DNA of 60,000 nucleotides, taken from Strigamia acuminata (lineage: Eukaryota > Arthropoda > Chilopoda > Geophilomorpha > Linotaeniidae). Below are positions 13,001 through 58,707 of the stretch, piece after piece. The notes beneath the pieces were generated by a model, which was not told where the DNA came from, ran no database searches, and saw nothing but the letters and a program-made list of their open reading frames with translations. The DNA lies in contig OX442316.1 of assembly GCA_949358305.1 (NCBI GenBank), positions 9,674,001-9,734,000 of the forward strand, written 5' to 3'. The position numbers were made by a program, and so were the translations under genes. Position 1 is the stretch's first letter. Each line of letters starts with the position of its first letter.

Positions 13001-14809
13001 CTGTACCCCGATAATGCGATAAAAAATAATTGAAACTGCACCAGCCACCAAATAACTCTGAATTTGTAACATTTTATTGTTCGAACAGCATAAGATGTTA
13101 TAAATAAATAAATACAGTCAACACTGTCGATGAAACTAACAATAACTTAACCTAAACCAAGCGAAATTGGTTGTAGATGGTTAATAACATCGGTATTGTC
13201 ACTGTTCACGCGCATAGCAGTTTCCTTAGCCACATCAATGTCGTCTTGACAAAAGCCGAGGAAATCCGTCGCGTCGTCTTTGACGTACACATCGTCGTCA
13301 CACACGATATCCCCGTCCATGAACCCATCGATGATGCTTCGTTCAGTCAGTCTTTTCCACGTGGTGTTGACGCACTCCAAAATCTCTTTGCACGTGATTC
13401 GCGATTGAAATGCGTTACGAAACATTTCGCCAAGGAAGTCCGAATTATTCGAACCGTTCGGCACGTGGACGACGTCAGTGAGGCAGTATTGGGCGGCTAA
13501 GGATTGAAGAGATTCTTGGCCAAGCACACTGGTGATCGAAGAAACCAACAAACGATGGTTTTGGTATTCGCTCAACTTCCACACGTGTTTGAGCCACGAT
13601 AAAATTTCCGGTTCCTCCGGATATCCTTTTTTTGCAACGAGGATGTGAACATCTGGTGGAATTTTGATGGAAGGCGGCAGATCTTGACCTTTAAAGATAA
13701 CGAGCGGTTTCAATTTCGTACCGTCTGCTAATGCACACAAGACGAGCGTCACGTGTGACGTGTAATTGGATTTTAGGAAAGGCACACTGGTCTCGCTAAC
13801 GATTCCAACGTCCATTAGCTGATAGTCGTGAATTGCGTGCAAAGAACGAATGTTTTTATGGAAGTCTGAGAGATCGTCGTCGTCTTCCTCAGCCGCACTG
13901 GCTGGACCAGCATCGTTGCAAGGATTCTCGTTGGTATTATCACTTTGTGTGTCAGTTTGTACAGTTTCTGTAGTGTTTACGTCTTCTACTAGTCCGTTTA
14001 AGTTTGCATCGGACGACGTGGCGTCGGGGTGCGATTGTTTGTATAACTCCATTTGATCGTTGACCCAGTTGTATAAATCTTGCTCTATTGAACAGCTCGT
14101 TTCGGTTAAGATATTGCCTCTCCCGTTCCGCCATTTGCGACTGTGAACCGCCAAGCACAAATCCTTCTGTTGGTGTTTCCATAATTGGACTGATTTGTAT
14201 GAAACTTGAAACATGCGCGCAGCTGCGGTCATGGATTTCTTGATGCTGTATTGTACCACTTTAAGCTTGAATTCTGCCGTAAAACTTCGTCGATGTGAAT
14301 TGTTCCGCTTGCCCATTTGCAAGTTTTTTCAAAATAAATAGCGCACTCGTGCAGGTTGTTGACCTTCAAAACTGTTAGGAAAAATCTTGTCTCGCTCACG
14401 ACGCCATTGATTCGTGGGTTAGTTGCTCATCTCAGCGAGTTAAATTTGAGCTTGAGTGACGTCACAATTTGTTTGTTGGGTAAGTGAAGACTGATTTTAA
14501 TGACGTCAGAAGTTCTCATAATTAAGTGCGTCTGCTTGAAAAGTTTTTACTACCATTTGTTTGTCTATTTTTAAATTAAAATATTATTGTTCTTATTTAA
14601 TGTTTCCAGACTAATCCATTGATGATCCGGGTTGATATAAAAGCAGGTCACGGAGCAGGGAAACCAACCACGAAATTGGTATAAAGCAAGATTATCCGCC
14701 ATTTTTAAAAATAAGTTTTCACGTTAAATGTTTGTTTTTACAGATCGAGGAGCATACGGACATCTATTGCTTTATAATTCAATCTCTAGGATTGGAATTT
14801 AAAGATTAA
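10032..14809 (+). CDS. PREP: Prolyl oligopeptidase (prolyl endopeptidase, S9A)
   Basis: Cytosolic serine peptidase that cuts short peptides after proline. Exons: 10032-10109, 10197-10324, 10389-10484, 10548-10716, 10777-10878, 10950-11092, 11159-11321, 11377-11472, 11529-11633, 11696-11881, 11944-12057, 12121-12269, 12327-12443, 12509-12604, 12659-12760, 12821-12977, 14610-14678, 14744-14809. They join in frame to 711 aa (human enzyme 710). The N-terminal part and seven-bladed propeller track the family ([19 protein letters not shown]). All catalytic residues are visible: Ser556 in GGSNGG, Asp in [10 protein letters not shown] (about 640-643) and His681 in KAGHGAGKP. Introns are about 50-90 bases except intron 16 (1632 bases), which separates Asp from His and holds an antisense transposase-derived gene. 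It converges on DRC1, 154 bases away. Confidence 0.96.
13147..14316 (-). CDS. Pogo/Tigger-like transposase-derived protein, nested in PREP intron 16
   Basis: Single-exon frame of 389 aa, starting at [10 protein letters not shown]. The N terminus is a Psq/Brinker-type helix-turn-helix ([14 protein letters not shown], then [16 protein letters not shown]) as in CENP-B, jerky and Tigger proteins. An acidic Asp/Glu/Asn/Thr linker follows, then a DDE_1-like segment ([20 protein letters not shown]). The usual catalytic contexts are not conserved: where DETG and LVDN are expected, the sequence reads DVGIVSE and LLVSS, and the third acidic motif is not recognisable. Yet there is no stop or frameshift over 1.1 kb, and AATAAA lies 69 bases after the stop (minus, 13073-13078). 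I saw no clear terminal inverted repeats. Either a domesticated DNA-binding protein or a young decayed copy; I favour domestication. Confidence 0.75.
   Translation of the reverse strand: MGKRNNSHRRSFTAEFKLKVVQYSIKKSMTAAARMFQVSYKSVQLWKHQQKDLCLAVHSRKWRNGRGNILTETSCSIEQDLYNWVNDQMELYKQSHPDATSSDANLNGLVEDVNTTETVQTDTQSDNTNENPCNDAGPASAAEEDDDDLSDFHKNIRSLHAIHDYQLMDVGIVSETSVPFLKSNYTSHVTLVLCALADGTKLKPLVIFKGQDLPPSIKIPPDVHILVAKKGYPEEPEILSWLKHVWKLSEYQNHRLLVSSITSVLGQESLQSLAAQYCLTDVVHVPNGSNNSDFLGEMFRNAFQSRITCKEILECVNTTWKRLTERSIIDGFMDGDIVCDDDVYVKDDATDFLGFCQDDIDVAKETAMRVNSDNTDVINHLQPISLGLG
14457..14508 (-). promoter_or_regulatory. Two CRE palindromes upstream of the nested transposase-derived gene
   Basis: TGACGTCA occurs at 14457-14464 and again at 14501-14508, 141-192 bases upstream of the ATG at 14316. 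They may form a CREB/ATF-responsive promoter for the nested gene, or act on PREP as an intronic element. Confidence 0.35.
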
Positions 14810-35399: not shown

Positions 35400-38300
35400 A
35401 TGGAGGAAGTAGATTTAACTGCACTAACTCAAAGTAAGTGAGAGAAAGGAATGTTTAATTTATTTTAATTAAAATCAAAAATTGTTTTTAAATTATAGAT
35501 TTCTTAGAAAACAGTTCTCTCCAAGAAGGAATTGTACAAATAGGTAATTATCAGAACTTAGAAGGTTATTTACTATCGTTGCTCTGTATTGTGCTGGCAG
35601 GCAGTAGTGGATGATAGAACGGTGATCTGATTTAAAGTGTTTGCTTAAATTCTGCTTATTGTATTGTTATTGTATAAACGAATAAATGTGTTAAATTTTC
35701 AAATGTGAGAGTGCGACTTAATATTCAAGAAAATTTGTGCGTTATACAAGTAGACTAAAAAAAACGTATTTTGTAGGTAATGAAAATTCTGTCACCATCT
35801 GTATAACATCTAAGGAAGTAGAAAACTGCAATGACGACTGTGGTGCGTAAAGGCCAGCTATATTATAATATGTTTATAAGATCTAAGCAAAAATTGTTAG
35901 TTCTACAAAATCATAGAATATTTCTTTCTATAAAGCCAAGACACTTGAATTCGCACTGAAAGAAATTTATAAACAACTGACTCTGCCGAAGTTATCATGG
36001 TTGGACGAAGGAATGGATTTGGCTCTCAATACTTTTTACATGGAATTGCAATTAGACAAGGATAAAAAATTGATCAAGTTAGAAGATTTATTTAATTGCA
36101 GTTGTAAATGCAATCGATTGTTAATCGAAAGTAAACCTGGCTATGGCAAGACAACACTCTGCATCAAATTGCTGTACGATTGGGCGAATGATGCACCTTA
36201 CACTGAGCAATTTAATCTGGCCTTTTTAATCCCTCTTAAAAATTTGCCCGAAGAAGAGATTGAGGGTGGATTAGCTGCCATTCTTCCAGATTGTGGGATT
36301 GATAAAAATCGTTTAATGGACGTTATTATCAAAATGGGGGATCGTGTTTTGATAGTACTCGATGGATTTGATGAGTTAAGCCAAAGTCATAGGCAAAGTG
36401 TTCTCAGGGTGATGTATCGTCAAAGGTTTTGCAATGCTACTGTAATTCTAACTACCAGAGTTGGCGAATTTTATGTGCAGGCTGAAGAGTTGGAAAATAT
36501 TTTCGGTACTGCGGCATTTAAAAAAGAATTTTCTAAAGTTAAATACACAATCACGGGAATAAATGAATTCGAAGTGAGCAAATTTGTTAACAATATCAGT
36601 CCACACTGTGACGTTGAACGTCTGAATAGATTGGCTAAGATTAATCCCGAATTGTTCCAATGTCCCCTGTTTGTCATTATGTTTGCATTTCTCTCCTCCT
36701 GCAGTGAAAATATTGACGAGTTGAATACCCAAACGAAACTATATTGCTCACTGTTTAACTGCATCATAAAAAACAATCTTTCCAGAGATAAGAAGTGTTT
36801 CTCTACGGATTTTAACATATTTGATATGGAAGATAAGTCGTCTGACAGCATAAAAGTAATTTTACACGAATTTGGATACTTTGTTCGTTGGAATTCTGGA
36901 GGTGTGTTTAAATTGCAGTTTGAAGTTTGTCCGTTGACTGAAAAAGTGTACAACCTTGGTTTTCTTGTAAAGCATCAAAAACTGTCATTATTCAAGACAA
37001 CGTCCCATTTTGAAGCATTTCATAGATCTATTTTGGAGTTTATTGTCGCTTATTCCCTCTGGTTCGAATGTTCAATCGTCAAATTTGAGCTGACTGTAGA
37101 GATTATAATGGGACTTGTTTGTGTCTTCAATCAACAAAACACACAAACTTTGCCCTTTTTAATTGGTTTGTGCGAAGGTCATTTGTTTCAGTTTATTAAG
37201 AATACGAAAAAATATATCAGTCTTTACTCGAACGTGGAAAAATGCATATGGGAATTGACCTTTCGCAATATTTTGAATGCAAATTTGTTACGAGAGTTTT
37301 GTGAATTTATGCCCTTTCATTCATACGCTTCCTCATTTAGTGCAGAGGATTTGGAGTTTTCTATCGTTTCTGGCCATGTTAAGAAAGTGTGTATTCTTGA
37401 TGACGAAGATGTGGTTTTACCAAACGTTTTAATTCCACAACTGCGCTTGATTGTGACTGCTGGAGGTAAAGTTGCGGACCAAAATTTTTCATATCTAGAG
37501 AATGTGAATTGTTGCAATTTTATTCTCGATTTTCAGTTCGAAACTATCGATTTTCACATTTTTCAGATGTATTTACAAAGTTTTAAAGTCATTCACAGCA
37601 AGAGAAATACAATAATTAATTTAAATTCGGAAACACTCGATAAATTACCAGCAGATTTTAAGCTTGGAGGAATTAAAATTGATCAGGTCAAATGTAAATT
37701 AGCAGGAAAAGATGTCAAGGAATTCGAATGTGTCGATCGTTTTACAACCGCCCTCAAAGTAGATTCGTTAATAAAATGTGAAGTTCTGGAAAACACATTT
37801 ACAGGTCGAAACACGTTAATCGACATATTCGCAGCATTGCCTACGTCTGCTGAAGCAGTGGTTGTGGTTAAATGTTGTGAGCGTGTTGTTTTTAATGTTA
37901 AGGATTTGTCTGAGGAGGAGAGAAAAGAATGGTACGAAAATGTGAGCAAAGGCATGGTTACTTCGAGTTCAGGTTATAAACAGATTAAATATTTAAACGT
38001 AAATACTTTTGATCGAGATACATTGGCATCCATTTTAAAATTTACATCGGCATCCATATTGCAATGTGTATTTGAGCATTTGCTTAATGCCGTTGCCACA
38101 CTGCCATTATATTGGCCTGGTTTTGTCCACCTTGAGGAGTTGAGTCTCATTTTAACTGAAGACCAGAGCCCTAATTTTTGGGTAAAAATATTAAAATTTA
38201 AAAATTTGAAGTGCTTACAACTGCAAATGGTGGAGAGATTCGAGGCACTTAGTCACGTTAATCCTCTCTTAAATTGCATTTTATCATCATCTGTTACTCA

Positions 38301-38691
38301 TTTGTCCGTTCGTGCGTGGGTCAAAGATGATTTTGAATTTCCGATTTGTCTCATTAAAAATTTTAAAGAATTGTGTTTTCGGAAAGCATCGTTTGCATTG
38401 AATACAGTTAGCATTATAAGCATTTACAGATTTAACCATGCACTTGTCACTGATCTATTAGAATGTGTCAAGTTGAAGCTGTTACTCACAGTGCAGTTTA
38501 TTATTAATCCCGATGATTGGGCTGACATTGTGCGCAAATCTCATTTTGATTTTTCGATTTTTCGTCTGGTATTTCATGAGTTTGATTTATTTAGCGACCA
38601 GACGGAAATCCCTAAACTTCCCATCCAATTTTCAGAGGTTTATGATACAACGATAAACATTTTGTATATTCAAGTACAATTGAAAAATTAA
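35400..38691 (+). CDS. NLR protein 1: RHIM-like motif + NACHT + leucine-rich C terminus
   Basis: Exons 35400-35433, 35499-35543, 35777-35842 and 35936-38691; all splices are phase 1; 966 aa. The N-terminal tail carries VQIGNENSV (residues 24-32), matching the RHIM core. It is followed by a pre-NACHT helix block (IYKQLTLPKLSWLDEGMDL) like that of many animal NLRs. The NACHT NTPase has Walker A PGYGKTT (Lys120), Walker B VLIVLDGFDEL (Asp191-Glu195) and a TTRVGEF sensor-like motif. The C-terminal half (about residues 480-966) is rich in Leu/Phe/Cys with LRR-like lines (HLEELSLIL, NLKCLQLQM) but no regular repeat. No TM or signal peptide: a cytosolic STAND-type sensor is expected, ligand unknown. 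First of three tandem paralogues. Confidence 0.88.
35522..35801 (+). other. RHIM-like motif of NLR 1 (split by an intron)
   Basis: Encodes G-I-V-Q-I-G|N-E-N-S-V-T-I; the intron 35544-35776 splits the Gly codon. Compare the RHIM consensus [IV]-Q-[IVLC]-G-x-x-N-x-[MLI]; only the final Val departs from it. Confidence 0.7.
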
Positions 38692-38733
38692 CTTAGCGAA
38701 TCTCTCATTTTTAATGGATAAAATTTCAGTAGT

Positions 38734-38894
38734 CAGGGACGGATCTACATCAGGGCAAATAGGGCTTGAGCCCAGGGCCCCCAAGACACAATATTCGACT
38801 ATATATACATATATATATATATATTTTTTTTTTGATAAATGGTCCCCGAAAAAACCTCAAGCCCAGGGCCCCCAAAAAGCTAGATTTGCTCCTG
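38734..38894. mobile_element. hAT-like MITE, 161 bp
   Basis: Starts CAGGGACGGATCTA and ends in the inverted counterpart (TAGATTTGCTCCTG), with a second inverted match inside (GGGCTTGAGCCCAGGGCCCC against CTCAAGCCCAGGGCCCCC). It is flanked by TCAGTAGT (38726-38733) and TAAGTAGT (38895-38902), an 8-bp duplication with one mismatch, as expected for hAT. A TA microsatellite lies inside. Non-coding. Confidence 0.75.
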
Positions 38895-39779
38895 TAAGTA
38901 GTTGTCCTTTTATTTGTTATATATAAGTTATATATAATTAATTAAGTAATGTAATGTAAAGAAAAATTATTTTTTTGAAAATAAACACAATTTCTGGTAA
39001 CACATATTTCTTTAAATTTTTTTCTCTAAATTTATAAATAGGTATTATCAGAAAAAAAAAGTTATTTAAATAAACCCTCCAGCATGAAATAAACCATCCA
39101 AAAAAATTCAGGGAAAACCCAATGAGGAAAAGTATGACATCATGTGATTAATCATGACCGGAAATTAGCTGAGTATTCTCTTATTACACGTGGTACAGCC
39201 ACACATGTCGTTTCAACACACAAACATCCAAAACGATCGTCTACGAGCTGGATTTTTACAGCAATTTGAAGTGTTTTCATGTGCTTTTCACAGAGTTCAC
39301 ACATGAGATTGTAGGTAGGTTCTGACGTATTATTATGAAACTTTTGGTTGATGAACTTTTGATAAGACTAGACGAGAGAGAGATGACAGTGGTGTGATTG
39401 ATTGAAATTTAAACTAACATTGCCCGCTGTAATACACAGTTGTCAGCTAAAATATATCTATGTTTAATTAGGAAAACGATTAAAAGAAAGCAAATAACCT
39501 TTTGAGCGTAGCTGTGTGACTCAGGCGAAGGAACTGGGCGAGGCTCTTTTGTTTGTTTGGTTGTTACTAAAACGCGCGCTCAGAGTTTTCGTGTTATTAT
39601 ATTTGTTATACCATTGTTTTACCTGACAAGTTGATATTTATTTACAGCTCACATTTGTACACATAAGTGCTGCTCTTTCTTTAGTCGATATTTTTCTATC
39701 TACGTGTTTAATATTATTGCGATTTTTTCATGGCTGCGGAAACCATTAGGAAGAAAAAGGAAATGAAATCTTATTGATT
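38895..39779. other. Spacer between NLR 1 and NLR 2
   Basis: No gene seen; presumably the NLR 2 promoter. No canonical TATA box near its start. Confidence 0.45.
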
Positions 39780-42700
39780 ATGGACGAGGTTGCTTTGGAT
39801 TTAGCTGCATCAATTCAATGTAAGTAACTAAAAAAAATAGTATTTTTAAGTTTTTAAATTAAAACCCAACTTCCTTTTTAAATTTCAGACTTATTAGAAA
39901 ACGGTTCTTTCCAAGGAGGAATTCTACAAATTGGTAATTATCAGAACGTGGCAACTAGAACTTTCATTTACTAAATATTTGTGTGTACGGTGCTGGTAGC
40001 TGGTGGCGGGTAACAGAACAGCGATTGTGGTGCTTGGAGACCTTGAACCTGGGTACGGGCATGGGCATTAAATGGAGGCCCACCAGTTTATTGTTTTGAA
40101 TATCAGTAGGGCAGTCGATCTCGGGATCGAAACAGATTGAGAAGTTGATTATTCAAAAAATACAGCATGCTTCATGAATAAAGAGATGCTGGATGCTATT
40201 CGCACTTAGATCCTTATCCCGACCTTAGTGCCCTCTACTAATTAGTGGCTCTAATTGATAAATATTTTTTAGGAAATGAAAATTCTGTTACCATTTGTAC
40301 GGGTAATGAGGCGGTAGAAAACAGCAGTGATGATTGTGGTACGTACAATTCATTTACAAACGAAATAATTATTATTCACAAAATGCTGTTAATAATTCTT
40401 TCTGTATAAAGCCAAGGAACTTGAATTCTCATTGAAAGAAATTTATAAACAACTGACTCTGCCCAAGTTATCATGGCTGGACGAAGGAATGGATTTGGCG
40501 CTCAATACTTTTTACATGGAATTGCAATTGGACAAGGATAAAAGATTGATCAAGTTAGAAGACTTATTTAATTGCAGTTGTAATTGTAATCGACTATTAA
40601 TCGAAAGCCAACCTGGCTATGGCAAGACAACACTCTGTATCAAATTGCTGTACGATTGGGCGAATGATGCACCTTACACTGAGCAATTTGAACTGGCTTT
40701 TTTAATTCCTCTTAAAAATTTGCCCGAAGAAGGGATTGAGGATGGATTAGCTGCCATTCTTCCAGATTGTGGGATTGATAAAAATCGTTTAATGGACGTT
40801 ATTATCAAAATGGGGGATCGTGTTTTGATAGTACTCGATGGATTTGATGAGTTAAGCCAAAGTCATAGGCAAAGTGTTCTCAGGGTGATGTATCGTCAAA
40901 GGTTTTGCAATGCTACTGTAATTCTAACTACCAGAGTTGGCGAATTTTATGTGCAGGCTGAAGAGTTGGAAAAGATTTTCGGTAGTGCGGCATTTAAAAA
41001 AGAATTTACAAATGTCAAATACACAATCACGGGAATAAATGAATTTGAAGTGAACAAATTTGTTAACAACATCGGTCCACACTGTGACGTTGACCGTCTG
41101 AATAGATTGGCTAAAATTAATCCCGAGTTGTTCCAATGTCCCCTGTTTGTCATTATGTTTGCATTTCTCTCCTCCTGCAGTGAAAATATCGACGAGTTGA
41201 ACACCCAAACGAAACTTTATTGCTCTCTGTTTAACTGCGTCATAAAAAATAGTCTTTCTAGAGATAAGAAGTGTTTTTCTAAGGATTTTAACATATTTGA
41301 CTTAGAAGAAAAATCGTCCGATTGTGAAAAAGGAATTTTACAAGAATTTGGAAAATTTATTAAAAAGTCAGGTGGTGTGTTTAAGTTGCAGTTTGAAGTT
41401 TTTCCGTTGACTGAAAAAGTGTATAAATTAGGATTTCTGGTTAAGCATAAAAAAATGTCACTATTCAAAACCACGTCACATTTTGAGGCGTTCCACAAAT
41501 CCGTTTTGGAGTTTGTTCTAGCTTATTCACTGTGGCTTGAATGTGCAAGGGTAAAATTCGAGCTGACTCAAGACATTTTAAAGGGAATCATTGGTATCTT
41601 TAATCAACAAAAAAGTGCTCAAATTTTGCCTTTTTTTATCGGTTTGTGTGAAAATAACTTATTTAAGTTGCTTGATTATTTAAAAAAATATATCAGGCTT
41701 TATTCGAACGTGGAAGAATGCATATGGGAATTAATTTCTCTCAATAAGTTGAACACTAATTTGTTACGAGAGTTTTGTGATTTTATGCCCTTTCATTCAT
41801 ACGCTTCTTCGTCTAGTGTAGACGAATTAAAGTTAAATCTTGTTGCTGGCAGTGTTAGGAAAGTGTGCATTCTTGATGATGAAGATGACGTGGTTTTACC
41901 AAATTTGTTAATTCCACAATTGCGCTTGATCGTGACGGGTGGAAATAAAGTTGCCAACCGAACGTTTTCATATCTAGAGAATGTGAATTGTGACAATTTT
42001 ATTCTCGATTTTCAGTTCGAAACTATTGATTTTGACACTTTCCAGACGTACTTTCAAAGTTTCCTAGTAATTAACAGCAAAAGGAATATAATAATTAATT
42101 TAAATTCGGAAACATTCGATAAATTGCAAACAGATTTTAAATTTGGAGGAATTAAAATCGACCACGTCGAATGTAAATTGTCTGGAAAAGATGTCAAGGA
42201 ATTCGATCGTTTTACTCGTTTTACAAACGCACTCAGAGTACACTCACTAATAAAATGTGAGATTCTGGAAAACACATTTACTAGTCGAAACTCTTTAATT
42301 GACATATTTGTGTTATTACCTACCTCCGCAGAAGCAGTGGTTGTGGTTAAATGTGGAGAAAGAGTTGTTTTTAATGTTAAGGATTTGTCTGAGCAGGAGA
42401 GAAAAGAATGGTATAAAAATGTGAGCGAAGGCGTGATCACTTCGAGTTCGGGTTATAAACGGATCAATTATTTAAACGTAAATACTCCTGATTGTAATAT
42501 ATTGGGGTCCGTTTTAAAAGTTACATCCGTATCAACATTGCGGTGTTTATCTATGCACTTACTGAATGCGTTTGACACGATACCATCTCGCTGGCCTGGT
42601 TTTATTCACCTTGTAGTGTTGAGTCTCATATTAAGTCAAGGTCTGAATCCTAATTTTTGGAGGAAAATTTCAAAATTTCGAAATTTGAATTGTTTGGAAT

Positions 42701-43173
42701 TGCAAATGATGGGCGTACTAAAGCCTTCCGATCACGTTGATGCTCTCTTAGATTGCATTTTGTCACTACCCCTCACTAGTTTGTCCTTTCATTTAGAGGT
42801 TGTAGATGACAATGAATTTCCCAAGTGTCTAATTCAAAAGTTTAAAGAAGTTTGTTGTCGGAGGACATCGTATACTTTGAATTCACTTTGCATTGTAAGT
42901 GTTCTCGGATGTAATCCCACACTCGTCTCTGATCTATTGGAATGTGTCAAGTTGAAGTTGTTGCTTAAAGTGCAGTTTTTTATCAACCCTGATGTGTGGA
43001 CTGATATCGTGAGCAAAATTCACATCGATTATTCGATTTTTAACGTGGTGCTTAAAGTGTTTGATGTGCATAGTAGTGATAATGAAATCCCTAACCTGCC
43101 TACCGCATTTTTAATACATGTTGATTCAACGAAAACTATTTCGTATTTTCAAATACAACTAAAAAATCTCTAA
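39780..43173 (+). CDS. NLR protein 2: RHIM-like motif + NACHT + leucine-rich C terminus
   Basis: Exons 39780-39819, 39889-39933, 40273-40338 and 40412-43173; 970 aa, same four-exon, phase-1 plan as NLR 1. The N-terminal tail has LQIGNENSV (residues 26-34). Walker A is QPGYGKTTLC, Walker B VLIVLDGFDEL, sensor-like motif TTRVGEF. The NACHT half is almost identical to NLR 1, including 231 identical bases, while the C-terminal half is clearly more diverged and differs by small indels. This looks like a recent duplicate, or a pair homogenised by conversion in the NTPase. The C terminus ends ISYFQIQLKNL, like the other two. Minus-strand frames here are shadows. Confidence 0.88.
39912..40297 (+). 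other. RHIM-like motif of NLR 2 (split by an intron)
   Basis: Encodes G-I-L-Q-I-G|N-E-N-S-V-T-I; the intron 39934-40272 splits the Gly codon, exactly as in NLR 1. Leu instead of Ile/Val at the first core position. Confidence 0.65.
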
Positions 43174-43543
43174 TTTTTTATGCTTAAATTTTTTGTACTA
43201 CATTTCTTGTGCCATTTTTAAATATTTATTTTTGTTTTACCAAATGGTATAATTTTTAATGTACATAAAGATATTTTTTGGAAGATTGTCTGTTATTTTT
43301 TGCTGTGAAAAATTACAAAACGTTTGGTGTTGAACTGAAGATCTCCAAATTACACCATTTTTAGTAAATAGTGATTCATTTCCGAAGAGTATTATTTCCT
43401 ATGACCCTTTCCAAAGAGTTGGAAGTAAGAGTTCACATTCTTCTTGCTGGTTAAGGCTGTGGATGCAAGTATAAGCTTGTGTGTAAGTTTTTTTTTTGTT
43501 TTTCTTTTTGCTGCACATTTGTGAGAAATTCCACAATGGGTTA
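43174..43543. other. 3' flank of NLR 2
   Basis: No gene seen. It ends in an 8-bp direct repeat (ATGGGTTA, 43536-43543) flanking the next element. Confidence 0.4.
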
Positions 43544-44471
43544 GAGGCGCATGATATATCGCGAAAAAAGAAATCGCGAATCCCAAAAAAGCGACATTTG
43601 AAATCGCTACTTGTGAAATCGCGAATCGTGTTAGCGCAAACTCTCACTGGCGCGAACTCAAACTGGCGCTAAGTGAACACGCGCGAAAAAAGCAATCGCG
43701 AAATAAACAAATCGCGAAAAATCGCGAAAAAAGCAATCGCGAAATAAATAAATCGCGAAAAATCGCGAATAAAACAAATCGCGAATAAAACAAATTGCGA
43801 ATAAAACAAATTGCGAATAAAACAAATCGCGAAAAATCGCGAAAAAACACAAACATCACAAACATCACAAACAGCAAATAATCGAGTCAACGAAACGACT
43901 AAAATAAATACCTGAATTGAACAAAACGACTAAAATAAACATCTAAATTGATCAAGAACACAAAAACATTGTGATAAAATCAAAGTTCTGTCAATATGAC
44001 ATCCGCGTTCTATTAAAGTATTTTACGGAACTTGTCATACCATTTCCGAAGACAAATTTCCGGCCACAAACACCAACTTCCTTAAATTTAAAAAAGGGCG
44101 TGGGCGAGGACGTGGCCGAGCTTCGGCAACACTGTAAAGTTTTTCTGTTCGTTCTTTGTTTCATTTTGTTAATAAGTTAAATAAATAGTTTCAATTTTTT
44201 GCATTTTTTCGATTTTTTCAATTTTTTGCATTTTTTCCATTTTTTCCATTTTTTTCGATTTTTCCTCAATTTCGCGTTTTCTTAATTTCGCGTTTTCTTT
44301 TTTCGAATTTTTTGTAACATTTCGCTAAAGTTTGATTCGCGATTTCTTTTTTCGCGATTTTTTCTTTCGCGATTCCTTTTTTCGCGCCTACTTCCGTATG
44401 AAAAAACAAATCCCGATTTTCGCGATTCCTTCTTTTCGCGATTTCTTTTTTCGCGATACATCCGCCACCCC
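43544..44471. mobile_element. Non-autonomous TIR element with CGCGAAAAA-rich arms (928 bp)
   Basis: A perfect 24-bp inverted repeat (TATCGCGAAAAAAGAAATC plus GCGAA) lies at 43557-43580 and, reversed, at 44435-44458, inside less perfect outer ends (left GAGGCGCATG; right, reversed, GGGGTGGCGGATG). The left arm holds many direct copies of an AAATCGCGAA(T/A)AAAAC-type unit; the right arm holds inverted ones. Directly flanking is ATGGGTTA on both sides (43536-43543 and 44472-44479), an 8-bp duplication as in hAT. No transposase. The minus frames with repeated FAICFIR-like peptides are translations of the repeat, not genes. Confidence 0.65.
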
Positions 44472-44479
44472 ATGGGTTA

Positions 44480-45343
44480 TAATTTTTTTTCAAGGATTCA
44501 AATTATATTGGTTCGGAATTTAAATATTCACAGGAAAAACCCAAAGGTTGATTTGTGATAACTGATGTGTGTCCAGCCGAGCACATTCATTCTCTTTTCA
44601 TTTATTTCTGTATTGTTGATGACAGTACAGGATGGATTACTAAAATTGGATGTTAATAGAGGATTTATTCCTGAGAAAAGTATACTTTGTAGAGACTACA
44701 AAAGCCTTCAAACTTTTTATTACTTTAAAATTACCTGGAATTTTTTTCCTCACCTCCAAGTTGAAAATAATTAATACATTTTTCAGCACGTGTCGTATAA
44801 ATTGCTTAGATTATACTTTTTTTGTCTAATTATATTTGTTGATTTATGGCATTTTAAATGTTCCAAACATTTATTATTCGATTGAAAAATATTTTTCGAA
44901 TTTCAATTTGTCATACAAGGCCAGCAGGTTCTGATGAAAACAATCATGGAAATCTAAAATTTAAAAATGCCGTGGTTTATTTTCTTTTTTTTCAAAAATA
45001 GTTTTTATTTTTCTTTTCTCAAAAACAATCAATGAAAAAAAAATCTTTTTTAATTGCCAATTACCGTAAATCCTCTTTTAAAACCAGTGCAGAAGGGGAG
45101 TTATTTGAGGATCTGATTCGTATCGAAGGAATATAGAGACCAGTGAAAGAAAATAGACTTTGTCAAAAGAATATACGTATATAATTTATTAATCAGGCCT
45201 ATGGTAAGATTAGCGTATTTTTAATTGTCATTTAATTTTTTTAATAAAACAACAAAGTGATACGCATATGAAATAGAAGTTTAAAAAATTTTATTAATCA
45301 TCTTTTCAGAATAAAATCATAAAATACTTACCGTACGCAAGAA
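44480..45343. other. Spacer before NLR 3
   Basis: AT-rich; no gene supported. The 69-codon plus frame at 44565-44774 has a hydrophobic start, but no splice partner or domain. Confidence 0.4.
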
Positions 45344-48300
45344 ATGATGGAGTTGAATGTCAAACCAGAGTTAGCTTTATTGAGTAAGTAAGATTGTAAG
45401 AAACTATTTGGTTGTTAAAATAAGTAATAAACAGCCTGTTTTATCAATGTAGATTTTCTGCAGACGAATGATCTCAGTAAAGGAATAATACAAATCGGTA
45501 ACTTCTTACATCATAAGTATATAACGGAAGAAATACGAACATATTTAGAAATATAATAGCTTTGTGCTGAGCACCTTCTGACAGAAGCTGCTCAGCAATT
45601 CAGCACGACTGAATTAAATGAAAATTTGAACATATAAAAATGAATAGAGCATACGAGTTAAAATTTAATTATTCATGTTTTTAGGTTATAAAAATTCAGT
45701 TTCCTTGGCATCATATGCGGAGGTAAACAACTCTAGTGAAGACAATGGTACGGTTTAGTTATTAAAACAGTTTATAATTTATTTAAATCCTCAAATTATT
45801 AATTATTTATTAAAGCCACGAAGCTTGAATTAGCTCTAAAGGAAATTTATAAACAACTTTCATTGCCCCAATTGTCATGGATGGACGAAGGAATGGATTT
45901 GGCCCTTGATACGTTTTACATGGAACTTCAATTAGATGATAGAGAAAAAAAACTTATTTTGTTAGAAGACATATTTAAATGCGGCTGCAATCGGCTTTTA
46001 ATTGAAGGCAAACCTGGATTTGGCAAGACTACTTTGTGCGTTAAATTATTGCACGATTGGGCCAACGGTGCGTCATACACCGCACAGTTTAAATTGGCTT
46101 TTTTGATTCCTCTGAAAAATTTGCCTGAGGACGGTATCGAGGAAGGGTTGGCTGCCATTCTTCCAGATTGCGGAATTGATAAAAGTGACTTAACAAATGT
46201 AATAACGGAAACCGGAAAAGAAGTTTTAATCGTATTAGATGGATTTGATGAGTTATCCAAAAGTGTGAAACAAAATGTGCTCAGAGTTGTGTATCGTCAA
46301 ATGTATTGCGAAGCAACGGTGGTATTCACCTCTAGATATGGTGAATTTTACCCACAAACTGATGATTTAGAAGAGATTTTTGGTGCGTCAGCCTTTCAAA
46401 AAGAGTTTTCAGAAGTGAAATACATTATTACAGGAATTGGGGAAAGAGAAATTACCAAATTCATCAATAGAGTCAGTCCATTTTGTGACATTCAGCGCTT
46501 AGAGAAAGTATCGCAAAGTAACCCGGAGTTATTCCAATGTCCTCTTTTTGTAGTTATCTTTACATTTCTCGCTTCTTGCAGCGAAGATGTCGACAGTTTG
46601 GACACAAAGACGAAGCTGTATCGGGCTTTATTCAATTGCATTATCAAAAACAGTCTTGCGAGAGATAAAAAGAAAACGTGTGATCATTTCGATATATTTA
46701 ATGTCGAAGAAAAGTCTTCAGAGGTGTATCAGGAAATTTTACAAGAATTCGGGGAACTTGTTATTCAAAATTTAATGGAATTTAAGTTGCAGTTTAATGT
46801 GAGTCGTTTCACTGAGCAAGTGTACAAACTAGGGTTTCTTATTAAGCACAGGAAAATGTCACTTTTCAAGACGACATCGCACTTTGAAGTATTTCACAAA
46901 TCCATATTAGAATTTGCTGTAGCTTATTCCATTTGGCGAAAATGTGTGATGCTGAATTTTGATCTGACTGATGAAATTGTACAGACTTTAGTTTGTATCT
47001 TTATGCATCAGAAAAACACTCAAATTTTGCAATTTTATTTTGGTTTATGCGAAAATAACTTGCTCAAAATGCTCGGTTATTTTCAATTGTACGCCAGCAT
47101 GTATTGGAGCATAGAAGAGTTTGTGTGGGAATTAATCACTCATATTAAGTTAGATACAAATTTGTTGAAACAATTTTGCAATTTTATGCCTTTTCACTGT
47201 TACGCCTCTTCTGTTACCACCGATGAATTGAAATTAGGACTTGAATCTGGACGTATAAAGAAATTGTGTCTTTTAGCTGATGATGTAACGCACTTGCCCA
47301 AGGTTCTCATTCCAGAACTGCGTTTGATTGTGACCGACACAAAAAATGATTTAAACTTCTCCCACTTACAAGATGTACGTTGTTCGAACTTCGTCCTTGA
47401 TTTTCTGTACGGAAACATCAATCCACACGTTTTTCAAACTTGTTTGCAAGCCGTTAACATCATTAAAAGTGGCAGAAATATCATGATTAATTTTAATTCT
47501 GAAACAATCAGGAAAATGCCATCTGACTTTTATGTTTCAAGGGTCAGAATTGATCAAATTGAATGTACTGTTAGTGTAAAGGACGAGACTGAATTTGATC
47601 AGATTGGCATGTTTACCACATTTTGCAAAGCGAAATCCTTAAAACTTGTAATTTTAGAAAGTAATTTTTCAAGTCGTAACGACTTACTGGACATTATTCC
47701 CTTACTGCCTACTGCAGATGAAGTGACATTGATAAAAGACAGAGATGAAATTGTTTTCAATCTCCAGGATGTGGCAATGCAGAGAAGGAAAGAGTGGTAC
47801 AAAACTTTAAGCGAGAGGGTAATTAATCAGCAAACAAAATATGTCCGGATTAATTACCTAAATGTCAATTCACCCAATAAAGATTTATTACTGTCTATTC
47901 TGAACCTTACTCTTGTTACCCAATTGCGATGTTTTTCTGGACATTTGACCGTTGCACTCGATGCATTGCCAGCTTCGTGGCCCGGTTTTCCGCATCTTGA
48001 AGATTTGAGTTTGTTATTGTGTAATAACCAAACGCCTAATTTATGGGAAAACATTAAAAAGTTTCAAAATCTGAAATCACTTGAATTACAAATGATGTGG
48101 AAACCCATTTACATCGATCACATTGATGTGATTTTAAATTGCATCTGTTGTCTCGCTATCAGCGATTTATCTTTTCATTTGGAAGTTAAAGATGATGCTG
48201 TGTTTGTTGCCGCATTTATTCGAAAGTTGAAAAAAATATGTTTACAAAAACCATCAAATTACTGTGCTTTGAAAGTAATTAATATCATTAGTATTCAAAA

Positions 48301-48577
48301 TTATGATTGCCTAGTTCTGCCTCAACTGTTAGATTCTTTAAAGTTAGGATTTTTATTTAAAATTCAGTTTATTATTAATCCTGATGTTTGGGCTGATGTT
48401 GTACGTAATACTGTTATCGATCATTCAATTTTCCAGATTTTGCATAACGAATATTTGTGTGAAAATACGTCTAATGGTGGGAGTGAAATTGCTAAGCTTC
48501 CCACTGCGTTTAGTAGACCTCCCGACCCAACAAAAAATGTATCGTATATACAAATACAATTAAAAATGACACGGTAA
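45344..48577 (+). CDS. NLR protein 3: RHIM-like motif + NACHT + leucine-rich C terminus
   Basis: Exons 45344-45383, 45453-45497, 45685-45747 and 45816-48577; 969 aa, same intron phases as NLR 1 and 2. The N-terminal tail has IQIGYKNSV (residues 26-34), the best RHIM match of the three. The pre-NACHT block (SLPQLSWMDEGMDLAL) and NACHT motifs are conserved: GKPGFGKTTLC, VLIVLDGFDEL and TSRYGEF. It is more diverged from the other two throughout and so is probably the older copy. The C-terminal half has LRR-like lines (HLEDLSLLL, NLKSLELQM) and ends VSYIQIQLKMTR. AATAAA lies at about 48709. Confidence 0.88.
45476..45709 (+). other. RHIM-like motif of NLR 3 (split by an intron)
   Basis: Encodes G-I-I-Q-I-G|Y-K-N-S-V-S-L; compare human RIPK1 IQIGAYNYM. 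The Gly codon is split by intron 45498-45684. Confidence 0.7.
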
Positions 48578-49263: not shown

Positions 49264-52200
49264 ATGGCTACTGCAGAAAGTCTTGCACGCACTGAAATGG
49301 TATGTTCTTTTATATTTGCACGCGTACTTTCTATTTTACGTGAATAATTTCATTTTATTTTATTAATTAACTGTCGTTGTTACTGTTAGTTTTCACCGTA
49401 ATTTAAGTTTAATTCTTTTGACGTTAGATGTGATATATACAGTATATATATATTAAAGCGCAGTTTTTTTTATTTAATTATTTATATAATTCTAATTCAA
49501 ACACGAAAATTACATTTTATTTTTAATTATTTATGATATTTCAATCGTTTTGACATACTTAAAAAATAGGACTTACAAATTTGTTATAATTCAAGTTGAC
49601 ATTCAAATGTTTTTTAAGTTTATTGCTAAAAAAAAATCAATTTCACACAAAACTGCAATTTATGTGACCCAGTAGAAAAAAAATAACAGAACCAGGAAAT
49701 ACAATTAAGTTGACATGTTCTGTTTTCCACACCAGTGTCATGTCAGACCCTGATTTCAAAGTTCACGAAATTTGACAACACTAATTAAATTTTCATTTTT
49801 AATCCTCTGTTACGTGAATTTACACACAATGCGGAAGGGGCTTTTCAATTTATATAACCTTGATTATTTGGATTGGCTGGGTGAGTAAAGTTTAATTTAG
49901 ACTTTTGGTTACATTCTTGATCAGTCAAGTGAATAAGAATCGGTTTCTGAAGAAAATACAAACGAAATTGGTCTACCGTAAATGCACAGCCAATTGTTTT
50001 ACTGCTTTAAAGCTTGAGTAATTTGATTATATGATATCAAAACATGTTGTGCCAAAAAATCTAGAAAAATGTACTTTTTTTTCCAAAATTGCCTTCATTA
50101 TAGTTTTTACTGATCTGAATTTATGTATAATTTATATCTCGGTATTGTGATAAATATATATATGATAATTTTATTCCGTCTTTTTCTTTTGTGAGCTAAA
50201 ATTGGGTTTCTATTCTAAATGAATTATTCTGTAGCAGTTTATGAAATTTATGGCCATTTTACTGAATATTACATATCAATTTATATTTTTTTAAATAAAT
50301 TAGAAGAAAAATTCTAATTTTTCTTATTTTTTATGTTTGAACTTTTATAATTCATTTCTTGCCTTCAAAATAAATAATAACGAAGAAATTGACAGTATAA
50401 AAATGTAGTTTTGACAAAAGTTGGTATGTGTTTCCGTGGTGTAGTGGTTATCACGTGCGCCTCACACGCGCAAGGTCCCCGGTTCGACCCCGGGCGGAAA
50501 CAGTTTTTTTTTATATTGATTTTATATTTTTATATTTTATTTTTAAAAATTCTAATAAGTAAATGACATCTGGGTGTTCAAATTTCTTTTTGTTCTGTTC
50601 TTTTCAGGCTACAGCTCATAATTTATATAGAAGAGCTCAACGGAGCTCAAAGGCAAATTACAATGGGCGTTGTATGAGATTCCTAAGAAAAGCTAAACGA
50701 AAACCAGTCTTGCACATGCTGCTTTTTTTCCTGCTCATCACCATTAGCGTTGTCGTCATTTTAATCGTCGTATTAACGACATGGCCTGGTAAGTATTTCA
50801 TTCCTCTACCACGCTTTAGCTCAAACCCAGTCAACACATTTTGACTAAACCGCCCTCTCGTGGCAACGGCACGAACTTCACATAATGCATCAACAACAAA
50901 ATGATAAAAACGTCTTATTTTCATTTTAAATTTACAAAAATTTATTCTCTAAAACATTTAATTTAATTTTTAAAAACGAACATAAAATTCCTCAGTAAAT
51001 CATGGATTAAATCAAAACCTTAAATATTATTCGAGTGTATTCTTTGAAACATCAGTGCTTTTACGTATAACACAAATTAGGTTTGGAAATCAACCACCAT
51101 TCTTTTTTGACAGAGAGGGTTTCGCACTCCACTCTAACCTAACCTAGGTATTTGGGTTTCTCAGCATTTATGTTGGGAAACAAGACCATAATCTATTTTT
51201 ATCTACTCTGAGTTGGAAGTAGATATTTACCTGGTTGTTCTTCCTGCATCGTGCCAGTTAGTTGTGTGGTGCCGGATGGATAGCCTTTCCAACTTCGCGG
51301 AACCTTATCTCTGTCCGAAAGTTCGGTGGAACTGCTGGAGTGTTGAGCGGCATCCAATTGGTTTTGGCTCTGTTTGCTCGCCAGCTAAATTATAAACTAA
51401 GATAAATAAAAATTTGCAGTAATAATCGATGACAATTTTGTTATTGTGTTTCAGGGCTTGAAAAAGAGTTCTCAGAAACAAACTCAAGTCGTTATGGATA
51501 CGAGGACACTGCGCTGTTTCGAATTCCCACGAAAGAAACATACTTATCAAATGTCAGCACCGAGACGAAACATGAATCCACAGAATTATTTGAGGATTCC
51601 TCACCTGACGAGTCGAACATCACACACGAAAGCATCGATTTGGACGCGGATAGTTTGGAAAAAAAATTAACGAGTGTTGAGTATCCGGTATACAATAACG
51701 ACACAGAGGACGACTTGAAAATTTGGTTAAATAATGATGTGACCTTTAATGGGTCTGATGAATCGGGAAGAGCGTATTATTGGGATGTCAGTCCCTCAGC
51801 TGGAGCAATTAGCACGGAAAATATTTCAAGAAGCTTCGAATTGGATTCTGATCAAGGTAAATGAGATAATAATAATAATATAAAATTTTGCAAAACATAT
51901 CTACCGGTAACATATTTTTATTGATTTAGAGGAGGACAAAATTTCGTTTTATTATGGTCCAGAATTAACTATCGATACGAGCATGTTTACACACACATTG
52001 AAGGAAACTACAACTGAAAAAATATCACAAATCTATACTCATCCAATTACTCAACTTTCGGCTTTGTTGACATTGAAAAAAAGTGTTGATATCAAGCCCA
52101 GTACAGTTGATTCACTGGCAAACCCCGCTGTAGTTTCTACACGTTTGGACACACTCAACTCGACTGAACTTTTTCACGAATTTACTCTTTACACTGAAAA

Positions 52201-53580
52201 ACCACAACCATCAACTATTCAATCATCGATAGCGGAGAATAATAACATAAAATATATGGGTTCAACGATAAAAAACAACTTGCGCTCCTCGGCTATCGAT
52301 CCTCTAGATGCAGAACATAATTTTTGGTCTTCGTTGGCAAATTTATCGCTAGCAAAATTTCCTTTATTGATGTTTTCTAACCACACATCAACGACTGGAA
52401 TTACGACGCCTCAACTCGGTGATGCGAATTTAACAACCGCTTTACCCTTTACAGAAACAGTTCGAATTGATGATGGCAGCGATTACTCTATTCGTTATGT
52501 CTTTCAAATTTCAAGTACACAAATGGTAACGGCAACTTCTATGAATGGAACGGTTTCTGTCGACTCGCCAACAAAAGGCGGTGGGTCTGCTTTAAGCCCC
52601 AGCGAAGCCGAGTACAATCATTGGCCGACGTCTGGAGAAGATATGACTTTAAGTGAACTTGTAGAGCGAACAAACGTCAATGTTGTTAAAGAAATTACGT
52701 CATCCATTTCAACTGAAAGCCAAAAAAATGAAGAGGTTGAAAGCACACCATCAGAAGTGGAATTTTTCCCATCAACAGAAACGAAAATTCCCAAACTGCA
52801 AATTACGCCAACCATTGATAACAGCAAAATGATAAATTCGTCCGTTGTTTCTGGTTGGGGATTTGGTAACAATAACAATGTTGCCACTGCAACCCAAACA
52901 GATGTTAGTCCCCAAAGCATTGTTACGAAATCATCGACCGAAGGTTCACAATGTCGTCGTAGAACCTTATCTTTCTGCGATGATGTTTCGTCGTATAATT
53001 CGACGTATTTACCTAATTTAGCGGGCGCTACAACTGAATTTGAAAAATGGCAACTTATCTCTTATTACAACTCGGTCGTAGATTGGGGATGCAATCTCTG
53101 GCTGAAAGAATATTTGTGCTATATCTTAGAGCCGATGTGTGTGGATGAAGTTGCTGTACCTCCGTGCAACAGTCTATGCAAAGGTATTAATTTAAAATTT
53201 AAAAAAATAATTAAATTCTAATTTTCTAATTAATTTTGTAGCTGCTAAAAAAGGTTGCGAGAAGTTCGTAACTGGTTCACCGACCCTAGAAGCCGTATTT
53301 CGGTGTGATGTATTTCCATCAGCGACTGCACAAATTCTGTGCGCTGGACTTGGAAATGGTGAAGGTGAGTCATACAAAATGCTTAATTTTAATTTCTCTA
53401 TTTAATGATTTTGTTTTTCATGTTTTTTTTCAAATTTTGATTTGCTCAGCATGTAAACACAATGAATATCGATGTTCAGACACCACATGCATCCCTGGAA
53501 CCTGGTGGTGCGATGGAGTGAAGGATTGTGAGCAAGGTGATGACGAGAAAGATTGTCACCCGAGAAACAGAAATCCTTAA
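49264..53580 (+). CDS. Type II membrane protein with Frizzled CRD and LDLa repeat
   Basis: Exons 49264-49299, 50608-50788, 51455-51856, 51930-53183, 53242-53364 and 53450-53580; 708 aa. A short basic cytoplasmic tail (FLRKAKRKP) precedes one TM helix (about residues 46-70, LLFFLLITISVVVILIVVLT). The ectodomain starts with about 475 residues rich in Ser, Thr, Glu and Asn (mucin-like stalk). A Frizzled-type cysteine-rich domain follows (about 548-665: YLPNLAGATTEF, CYILEPMC, VPPCNSLCKAAKKGCEKF), then one LDLa repeat (about 667-701: YRCSDTTCIPGTWWCDGVKD) and the stop. The layout resembles corin or MFRP, but no SRCR or protease domain follows. Role unknown; Wnt or lipoprotein binding is only a family-based guess. 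Exon 1 is the least certain. Confidence 0.8.
50430..50502 (+). tRNA. tRNA-Val (anticodon CAC)
   Basis: 73-base cloverleaf: acceptor GTTTCCG pairs with CGGAAAC, D arm TGTAGTGGTTA, anticodon stem TGCGC/GCGCA with loop CTCACAC (CAC at 50463-50465), and GGTTCGACCCC T arm. A T run (Pol III terminator) follows immediately. No intron; CCA is not encoded. It lies on the sense strand in intron 1 of the Frizzled/LDLa gene. Confidence 0.95.

Positions 53581-54136: not shown

Positions 54137-58707
<4,571 letters not shown>

Follow-up and report, generated by a model that had tools for sequence, protein, structure and literature searches.

Three tandem NACHT genes, here called g1 to g3, lie in a 60,000-nucleotide stretch of the centipede Strigamia acuminata (contig OX442316.1 of assembly GCA_949358305.1, positions 9,674,001 to 9,734,000; hereafter the window) that forms part of a genome of 237.5 Mb in 157 contigs. 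Their short 5' exons raise the question as to whether an animal NOD-like receptor (NLR) can carry at its N terminus a RIP homotypic interaction motif (RHIM), through which human cell-death proteins assemble signalling amyloids. RHIM-related motifs are known already on NLRs of fungi (PP) and bacteria (BASS3), and animal RHIMs are described on other architectures in the accessible text of the relevant papers (PMC7885112, PMC7889193, PMC12881547, PMC12261475). A preliminary description of this DNA had proposed that g1 to g3 join the two, and had added that no described arthropod NLR family of this architecture was known to it; a full-text literature search, judged on titles and abstracts and with subscription papers outside its reach, likewise returned no report that we recognised. 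Our analysis indicates that the three genes probably encode RHIM-NACHT receptors whose N-terminal peptides would seed a cross-beta assembly on a partner that has a RHIM of its own. The computed basis of this reading is the exon structure, a constrained RHIM-grade core and the place of the genes in a large NACHT family.

A split and constrained motif ahead of NACHT

The exons of g1 to g3 were joined by script from direct reading of the sequence, with splice sites set by eye. All three genes share one plan, in which three small 5' exons precede a single long NACHT exon on the + strand (Table 1), giving predicted proteins of 966, 970 and 969 residues respectively. Joining the exons confirms that the spliced 5' exons yield VQIGNENSV in g1, LQIGNENSV in g2 and IQIGYKNSV in g3, as had been predicted; the motif occupies residues 24-32 (g1) or 26-34 (g2 and g3), about 90 residues ahead of the P-loop, and in each gene intron 2 splits it within the Gly codon (G|GT). 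GT-AG sites bound all nine introns, each of which is in phase 1 as calculated from exon lengths, the joined frames contain no internal stop, and the differences in exon length between g1, g2 and g3 are multiples of three (34/40/40, 45/45/45 and 66/66/63); intron 2 measures 187 to 339 nt. The NACHT domain is recognised in g1 by PF05729 (E 3.4e-15) and in all three proteins above the cut-off of a NACHT model, and a Pfam scan of the g1 protein reported no LRR, CARD, Death or RHIM family.

The tetrad V/I-Q-V/I-G is present as VQIG in g1 and in two further members of the clade located elsewhere in the genome (L002 and L005), and as IQIG in g3. The g2 version, LQIG, occurs naturally in RIPK3 and belongs to a set of tested variants; NF-kB was activated by most of the set, TQIG and VQSG being the only ones for which failure is mentioned (PMC12119088). 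After the tetrad g1, g2 and g3 all read x-x-N-x-[MLIV]. The preliminary description had given the core as continuing x-x-N-x-[MLI], of which x-x-N holds (NENSV, NENSV and YKNSV) and the final position does not, being V in each case.

The motif is more than chance would give: matches to the pattern [IVL]Q[IVLC]G..N.[MLIV] arose in 65, 98 and 34 of 200,000 shuffles of the g1, g2 and g3 N-termini, and none occurred in 87,572 residues of 120 other proteins. As the three genes are paralogues and hence not independent, we took constraint to be a better test than shuffling, using an 11-residue window, GI.QIG..NSV, that consists of the RHIM definition and the adjoining GI. Between g1 and g3 the motif is identical at 8 of 11 residues compared with 11 of 37 in the remaining N-terminus (Fisher p 0.016), and between g2 and g3 at 8 of 11 compared with 9 of 39 (p 0.004); when nonsynonymous sites were compared in the same way, using hand-rounded counts, the p values were 0.001 and 0.0001. 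The rate of nonsynonymous substitution (dN) between g1 and g3 is 0.13 in the motif, 0.76 in the other 37 N-terminal residues and 0.33 in exon 4, where the synonymous rate (dS) is 1.8. The motif is thus more constrained than its flanks. Its retention in g3, the diverged third copy, had been noted in the preliminary description, and we find it also in L002 and L005. In an alignment of the five members the invariant columns are L3, G11, I12, Q14, I15, G16, N19, S20, V21 and V30, among which the RHIM core stands out.

Retention of intron 2 in g1 and g2 (35544-35614 and 39934-39974) would read QIGNYQNL and QIGNYQNV, with a stop about 22 and 12 codons later, and a tail-only short product is a possible outcome. 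We rejected this unspliced exon 2 as a second RHIM, given that it is lost in g3 and L005 and that its N falls one place late.

Likeness to known RHIMs within and beyond the clade

In order to compare the motif with known RHIMs we used a profile built from RIPK1 (two sequences) and RIPK3, with human TRIF held out. The profile gave g1 7.6, g2 5.9, L002 7.5 and L005 7.8 bits, scores that none of 1000 shuffles reached in each case, and g3 3.0 bits, reached by 13 of 1000. The held-out TRIF scored 5.4 bits (4 of 1000), so that the tails do better than shuffles and four of the five clade members lie at or above TRIF. Aligned with hhalign, the clade and the RHIM gave a p of 4.7e-4 and a probability of 33% over 14 columns. 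Searching 177,635 sequences of the PDB with a clade profile returned two matches, the second of which, 12kl_B, was aligned on IQIGNHNAMSI (E 0.31) and belongs to an entry that also contains RIPK3.

The clade sits within a very large family. Counts are lower bounds, with at least 53 protein-search matches to the g1 NACHT exon and at least 95 matches to the NACHT model, the latter spread over the contigs labelled C1, C3-C6, C8-C11 and C89 and forming clusters on C8 and on C6 (12.48-12.72 and 13.58-13.63 Mb). We scanned 55 upstream stretches of 1.5 to 5 kb for the split motif under strict criteria; these came from 35 NACHT loci, g1-g3 among them, one locus (L006) being only a C-terminal fragment. 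The split motif followed by a third exon was found at only 5 of the 35 (g1, g2, g3, L002 and L005), all of which keep the core, and an unsplit motif was found in none of the 55 stretches. GT-AG sites are present in the L002 model also. About 1 kb beyond L002 lies a sixth exon 2, for which the exon-1 donor is altered and a third exon is missing from the 0.48 kb examined beyond it. This is apparently a decayed 5' remnant of a g2-like copy (C4:4600665-4601300), and it seems that g1 and g2 were duplicated as a pair, part of which was lost.

More distant paralogues, at approximately 30-35% identity, have short N-terminal exons at the same place with different sequences, their tails including GGGIVPIQIHDVKNVTVKV, SGNVLVNIEHAKNVF, SGSVQLNIEDAKNVQ, TTVNYINI|ETVQHL, IYNIEVHRCG|ALQAGNTEI and SGNTSLTCDSVKQIHVETTVH. 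Since the Q-I-G-x-x-N core is not conserved among them, the RHIM is to be regarded as a feature of the clade and not of the family. All modelled N-terminal exon boundaries (g1-g3, L002, L008, L009, L015-L017, L019, L028 and L029) are in phase 1, and with such introns on either side the putative signalling tail resembles a cassette, so that genes could swap tails of different sequence and keep their frame. In the paralogue clade L051-L054 the second exon contains a further motif-like stretch, for example SSGVAINIDNTNSADTG in L051, besides SGSVQLNIEDAKNV, and this clade possibly has a two-repeat tail.

No close orthologue of g1-g3 was found in the protein collection, and a profile search from nine paralogues returned 12 proteins, none named as belonging to an arthropod. 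Among single proteins of the collection g1 was closest to a Centruroides protein, P0001, at about 25% identity. A search from two Centruroides proteins retrieved 63 proteins, and we examined the 51 of scorpion type (48 named Centruroides, 3 unnamed), which are paralogues of one genus and not independent. A tail of type NCTQVHVGPKIEIHSE was found by a broad pattern in 39 of the 51, the others having N-termini that were too short (9) or lacked it (3). This tail (NCTQVHVGPKIEI), which is related to the RHIM, stands in the same place as the g1-g3 motif, as an N-terminal [VI]-[HQ]-[VI]-G about 100 residues before the P-loop (P0001, P0025), but differs in having mostly H for Q and in mostly missing the N at the seventh place of the core, which P0082 (VHVGNNN) has. 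With a narrower pattern the match was N-terminal in 29 of 33 scorpion proteins, compared with 3 matches in 19,626 residues of the remainder.

For profile work 21 of the 39 scorpion segments were picked for diversity, with an anchor pattern chosen after the RHIM likeness had been noticed, which introduces a bias. Searched against the PDB, the profile of these 21 tails returned four matches, the top three of them RIPK3 aligned on its RHIM (E 0.09, 0.13 and 0.14), and hhalign of scorpion tails with the RHIM gave p 1.9e-5 and a probability of 77%. An ungapped profile of 32 scorpion tails scored RIPK3 at 13.4 bits, the maximum for shuffled tails of the window genome being 9.8.

Weighing a RHIM-based signalling role

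A number of results weigh against a RHIM-based reading. The Pfam model PF12721 (gathering cut-off 20 bits), run with default filters, was silent on the N-termini of g1, g2 and g3 while giving the human RIPK1 control 24.5 bits, so that on the Pfam standard the window tails are not RHIM members; it matched none of the 21 scorpion tails and found nothing above cut-off in the six-frame translated genome, where split motifs are invisible. In the PDB the best match of the clade profile was the unrelated 2o62 (E 0.1), single-sequence searches gave no RHIM, and every E-value was above conventional significance. None of ten distant paralogues passed the RHIM profile (the best was reached by 33 of 1000 shuffles and two had no score), and a profile mixing all paralogue tails retrieved no RHIM. 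Of seven scorpion tails only P0062 cleared all 1000 shuffles, the other six being reached by 13, 18, 20, 41, 121 and 140; the ungapped scorpion profile gave RIPK1 4.1 and TRIF -0.2 bits, and window and scorpion tails compared directly gave p 0.01 with a probability of 4%, the ungapped profile score not being significant. Pattern and RHIM-model searches of the genome, which split or diverged motifs would escape, found no partner among the matches examined. Each of the RHIM tests is marginal on its own, and it is in combination with the constraint on the motif that they make a convincing case from sequence for a RHIM-grade core in g1-g3, short of a proven RHIM.

The genome search for other proteins with the motif, suggested by the preliminary description, was run with several patterns. 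The unsplit RHIM pattern gave 8 matches compared with 3 for a reversed control; one (L056) was rejected as dispersed repeat DNA with 47 matches, and a second of the 8 is its repeat twin. Of the RHIM-model matches, the one in the longest frame (C3:12157285) scored 15.9 bits, short of the cut-off, and was rejected because the frame is otherwise unsupported and looks spurious. A split-exon pattern gave 10 matches and none in the control, 6 belonging to the g1-g3 NLR clade and 4 rejected as one shared sequence that, judged from L058, resembles a signal-peptide exon. The exon-3 pattern was too loose to be of use (76 matches versus 34 in the control). Of 13 death-domain matches, 2 were inspected by eye as Imd candidates, and neither resembles Imd.

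Under the RHIM-NACHT reading, the C-terminal part of each protein would sense a ligand and the NACHT domain would oligomerise, as RHIM and NLR biology suggest, thereby clustering the N-terminal peptides. The clustered peptides would then nucleate a RHIM fibril of cross-beta type, which would serve as a template for a soluble partner with a compatible RHIM. Drosophila Imd, PGRP-LC and PGRP-LE are reported to contain RHIM-like amyloid motifs, and for this reason an Imd-type adaptor leading to NF-kB would be the first candidate for an arthropod partner, with a pore or kinase effector as the alternative. Other clades of the same NACHT family carry other tails.

The strongest competitor to this scheme is that the tail is a short beta-strand peptide which binds a folded partner or packs on NACHT, its RHIM likeness being convergent and no amyloid being formed. 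The tails of distant paralogues follow a loose strand-like pattern without a RHIM core (GIVPIQIHDVKNVTVKV, SGNVLVNIEHAKNV, TTVNYINIETVQHL), as would be expected if only strand character matters, and the marginal PDB E-values and silent Pfam model point the same way. However, what the diverged g3 has retained, in spite of changes in its flanks, is the exact RHIM tetrad with the N after it, and the RHIM-profile scores of four of the five members equal or exceed that of TRIF; we consider this explanation rather unlikely. It is more improbable still that the 5' exons lie outside the main transcript, or that translation starts at a Met of exon 4, leaving the motif to a minor isoform or to nothing. 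In-frame Met codons do occur near the start of exon 4, and L005 and the remnant at C4:4601127 show that parts of the clade decay, but exons 1-3 are under constraint at the protein level (g1/g2 dS 0.56, dN 0.20; Fisher p 0.012, counts rounded by hand), their length changes preserve the frame, and GT-AG sites are present in g1, g2, g3 and L002. We give very little credence to the idea that the RHIM acts as a decoy or inhibitor, tying up host or viral proteins that have a RHIM and starting no signal itself; viral decoy RHIMs are known (PMC7375649), yet the tail here is N-terminal on an oligomerising NACHT protein, where NLRs in general have their signalling domain.

Comparison with known systems and neighbouring features

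The closest parallels are the fungal PP-motif NLRs (PNT1/HELLP of Podospora and the Chaetomium PP cluster), in which a short RHIM-related N-terminal motif sits on a nucleotide-binding receptor (PMC7885112, PMC7889193, PMC12881547). In these systems the partner is encoded in the same small cluster, whereas none was found for g1-g3 among the matches examined; PNT1 is an NB-ARC-TPR protein, in contrast to the NACHT and unassigned C terminus of g1-g3, and the window genes split the motif across two exons. Bacterial BASS3 systems likewise have a RHIM-related motif in NLR/effector clusters (PMC7885112, PMC7889193), but are prokaryotic and have the effector gene clustered. Mammalian RIPK1, RIPK3, TRIF and ZBP1 share the tetrad V/I-Q-V/I-G (PMC12119088), and RIPK1 and RIPK3 also the x-x-N after it; unlike g1-g3 they are not NLRs, and the N-[SC]-[ST]-G that precedes the RIPK1 and RIPK3 tetrad is absent from the window clade. 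Drosophila Imd, PGRP-LC and PGRP-LE offer a precedent for arthropod immune signalling via RHIM-like amyloid motifs (PMC7885112) but are not NLRs, which the accessible text of a 2024 survey reports as absent from Drosophila (PMC11508797).

The same text describes arthropod NLRs as being without an N-terminal effector domain, and concludes that other phyla which it names may have inflammasomes, but Arthropoda not (PMC11508797). No RIPK1 homologue was found in arthropods according to the part of PMC12119088 available to us, and a 2021 commentary places mammalian signalling amyloid motifs in architectures unlike those of fungi and prokaryotes and asks whether the RHIM is the sole metazoan one (PMC7889193). 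If our reading is true, an animal NACHT protein with a RHIM of its own would supply the output domain missing from arthropod NLRs, join the fungal and bacterial architecture with the animal motif, and open the question of a common origin to testing by cross-seeding. The findings suggest that amyloid signalling, as in fungal and bacterial NLRs, may be used by some animal NLRs. A broader proposition, which we put forward tentatively and with more doubt than belief, is that arthropod NLRs form a large family using short tails as amyloid signalling motifs on phase-1 cassettes, one clade having a true RHIM, scorpions a VHVG relative and other clades unnamed strand motifs, in which case NLR amyloid signalosomes like those of fungi and bacteria would exist in animals too, and one genome would contain several specificities in parallel.

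Table 1 Coordinates of the NACHT genes, two paralogues outside the window and other annotated features (window positions unless a contig is given)
Feature	Position	Strand	Remarks
g1 exon 1	35400..35433	+	start codon, 34 nt, end phase 1
g1 exon 2	35499..35543	+	45 nt, phase 1-1; codes ..EGIVQI and first Gly base
g1 RHIM-like core, 5' half (V Q I G|)	35534..35543	+	joined exons; RHIM profile
g1 exon 3	35777..35842	+	66 nt, phase 1-1; codes |G NENSVTI..; motif 3' half 35777-35793
g1 exon 4	35936..38691	+	NACHT and ~740 more residues without Pfam match, up to stop
g1 NACHT match (residues 111-225)	36121..36465	+	PF05729, E 3.4e-15
g2 exon 1	39780..39819	+	joined exon model
g2 exon 2	39889..39933	+	motif 5' half LQIG| at 39924-39933
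g2 exon 3	40273..40338	+	motif 3' half 40273-40289
g2 exon 4 (NACHT exon)	40412..43173	+	joined exon model; NACHT model match
g3 exon 1	45344..45383	+	joined exon model
g3 exon 2	45453..45497	+	motif 5' half IQIG| at 45488-45497
g3 exon 3	45685..45747	+	motif 3' half 45685-45701
g3 exon 4 (NACHT exon)	45816..48577	+	joined exon model; NACHT model match
L002	C4:4602165-4604912	-	split motif; open gene, 831/916 exon-4 residues identical to g1
L005	C11:2588423	-	split motif; truncated gene
DDE_1/BrkDBD transposase-like open reading frame	13147-14328	-	
tRNA-Val (CAC) gene	50429-50503		
Frizzled-type cysteine-rich domain protein	51911-53221	+	downstream of NLRs
Carboxylesterase-family first exon	54137-54562	+	downstream of NLRs

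Neighbouring open reading frames in the window include three chitin-binding cuticle proteins, in keeping with an arthropod source. Between g2 and g3, positions 43550-44470 contain about 0.9 kb of AATCGCGAAA-type repeats, oriented oppositely at the two ends, a stretch that looks like a mobile or satellite-like element.

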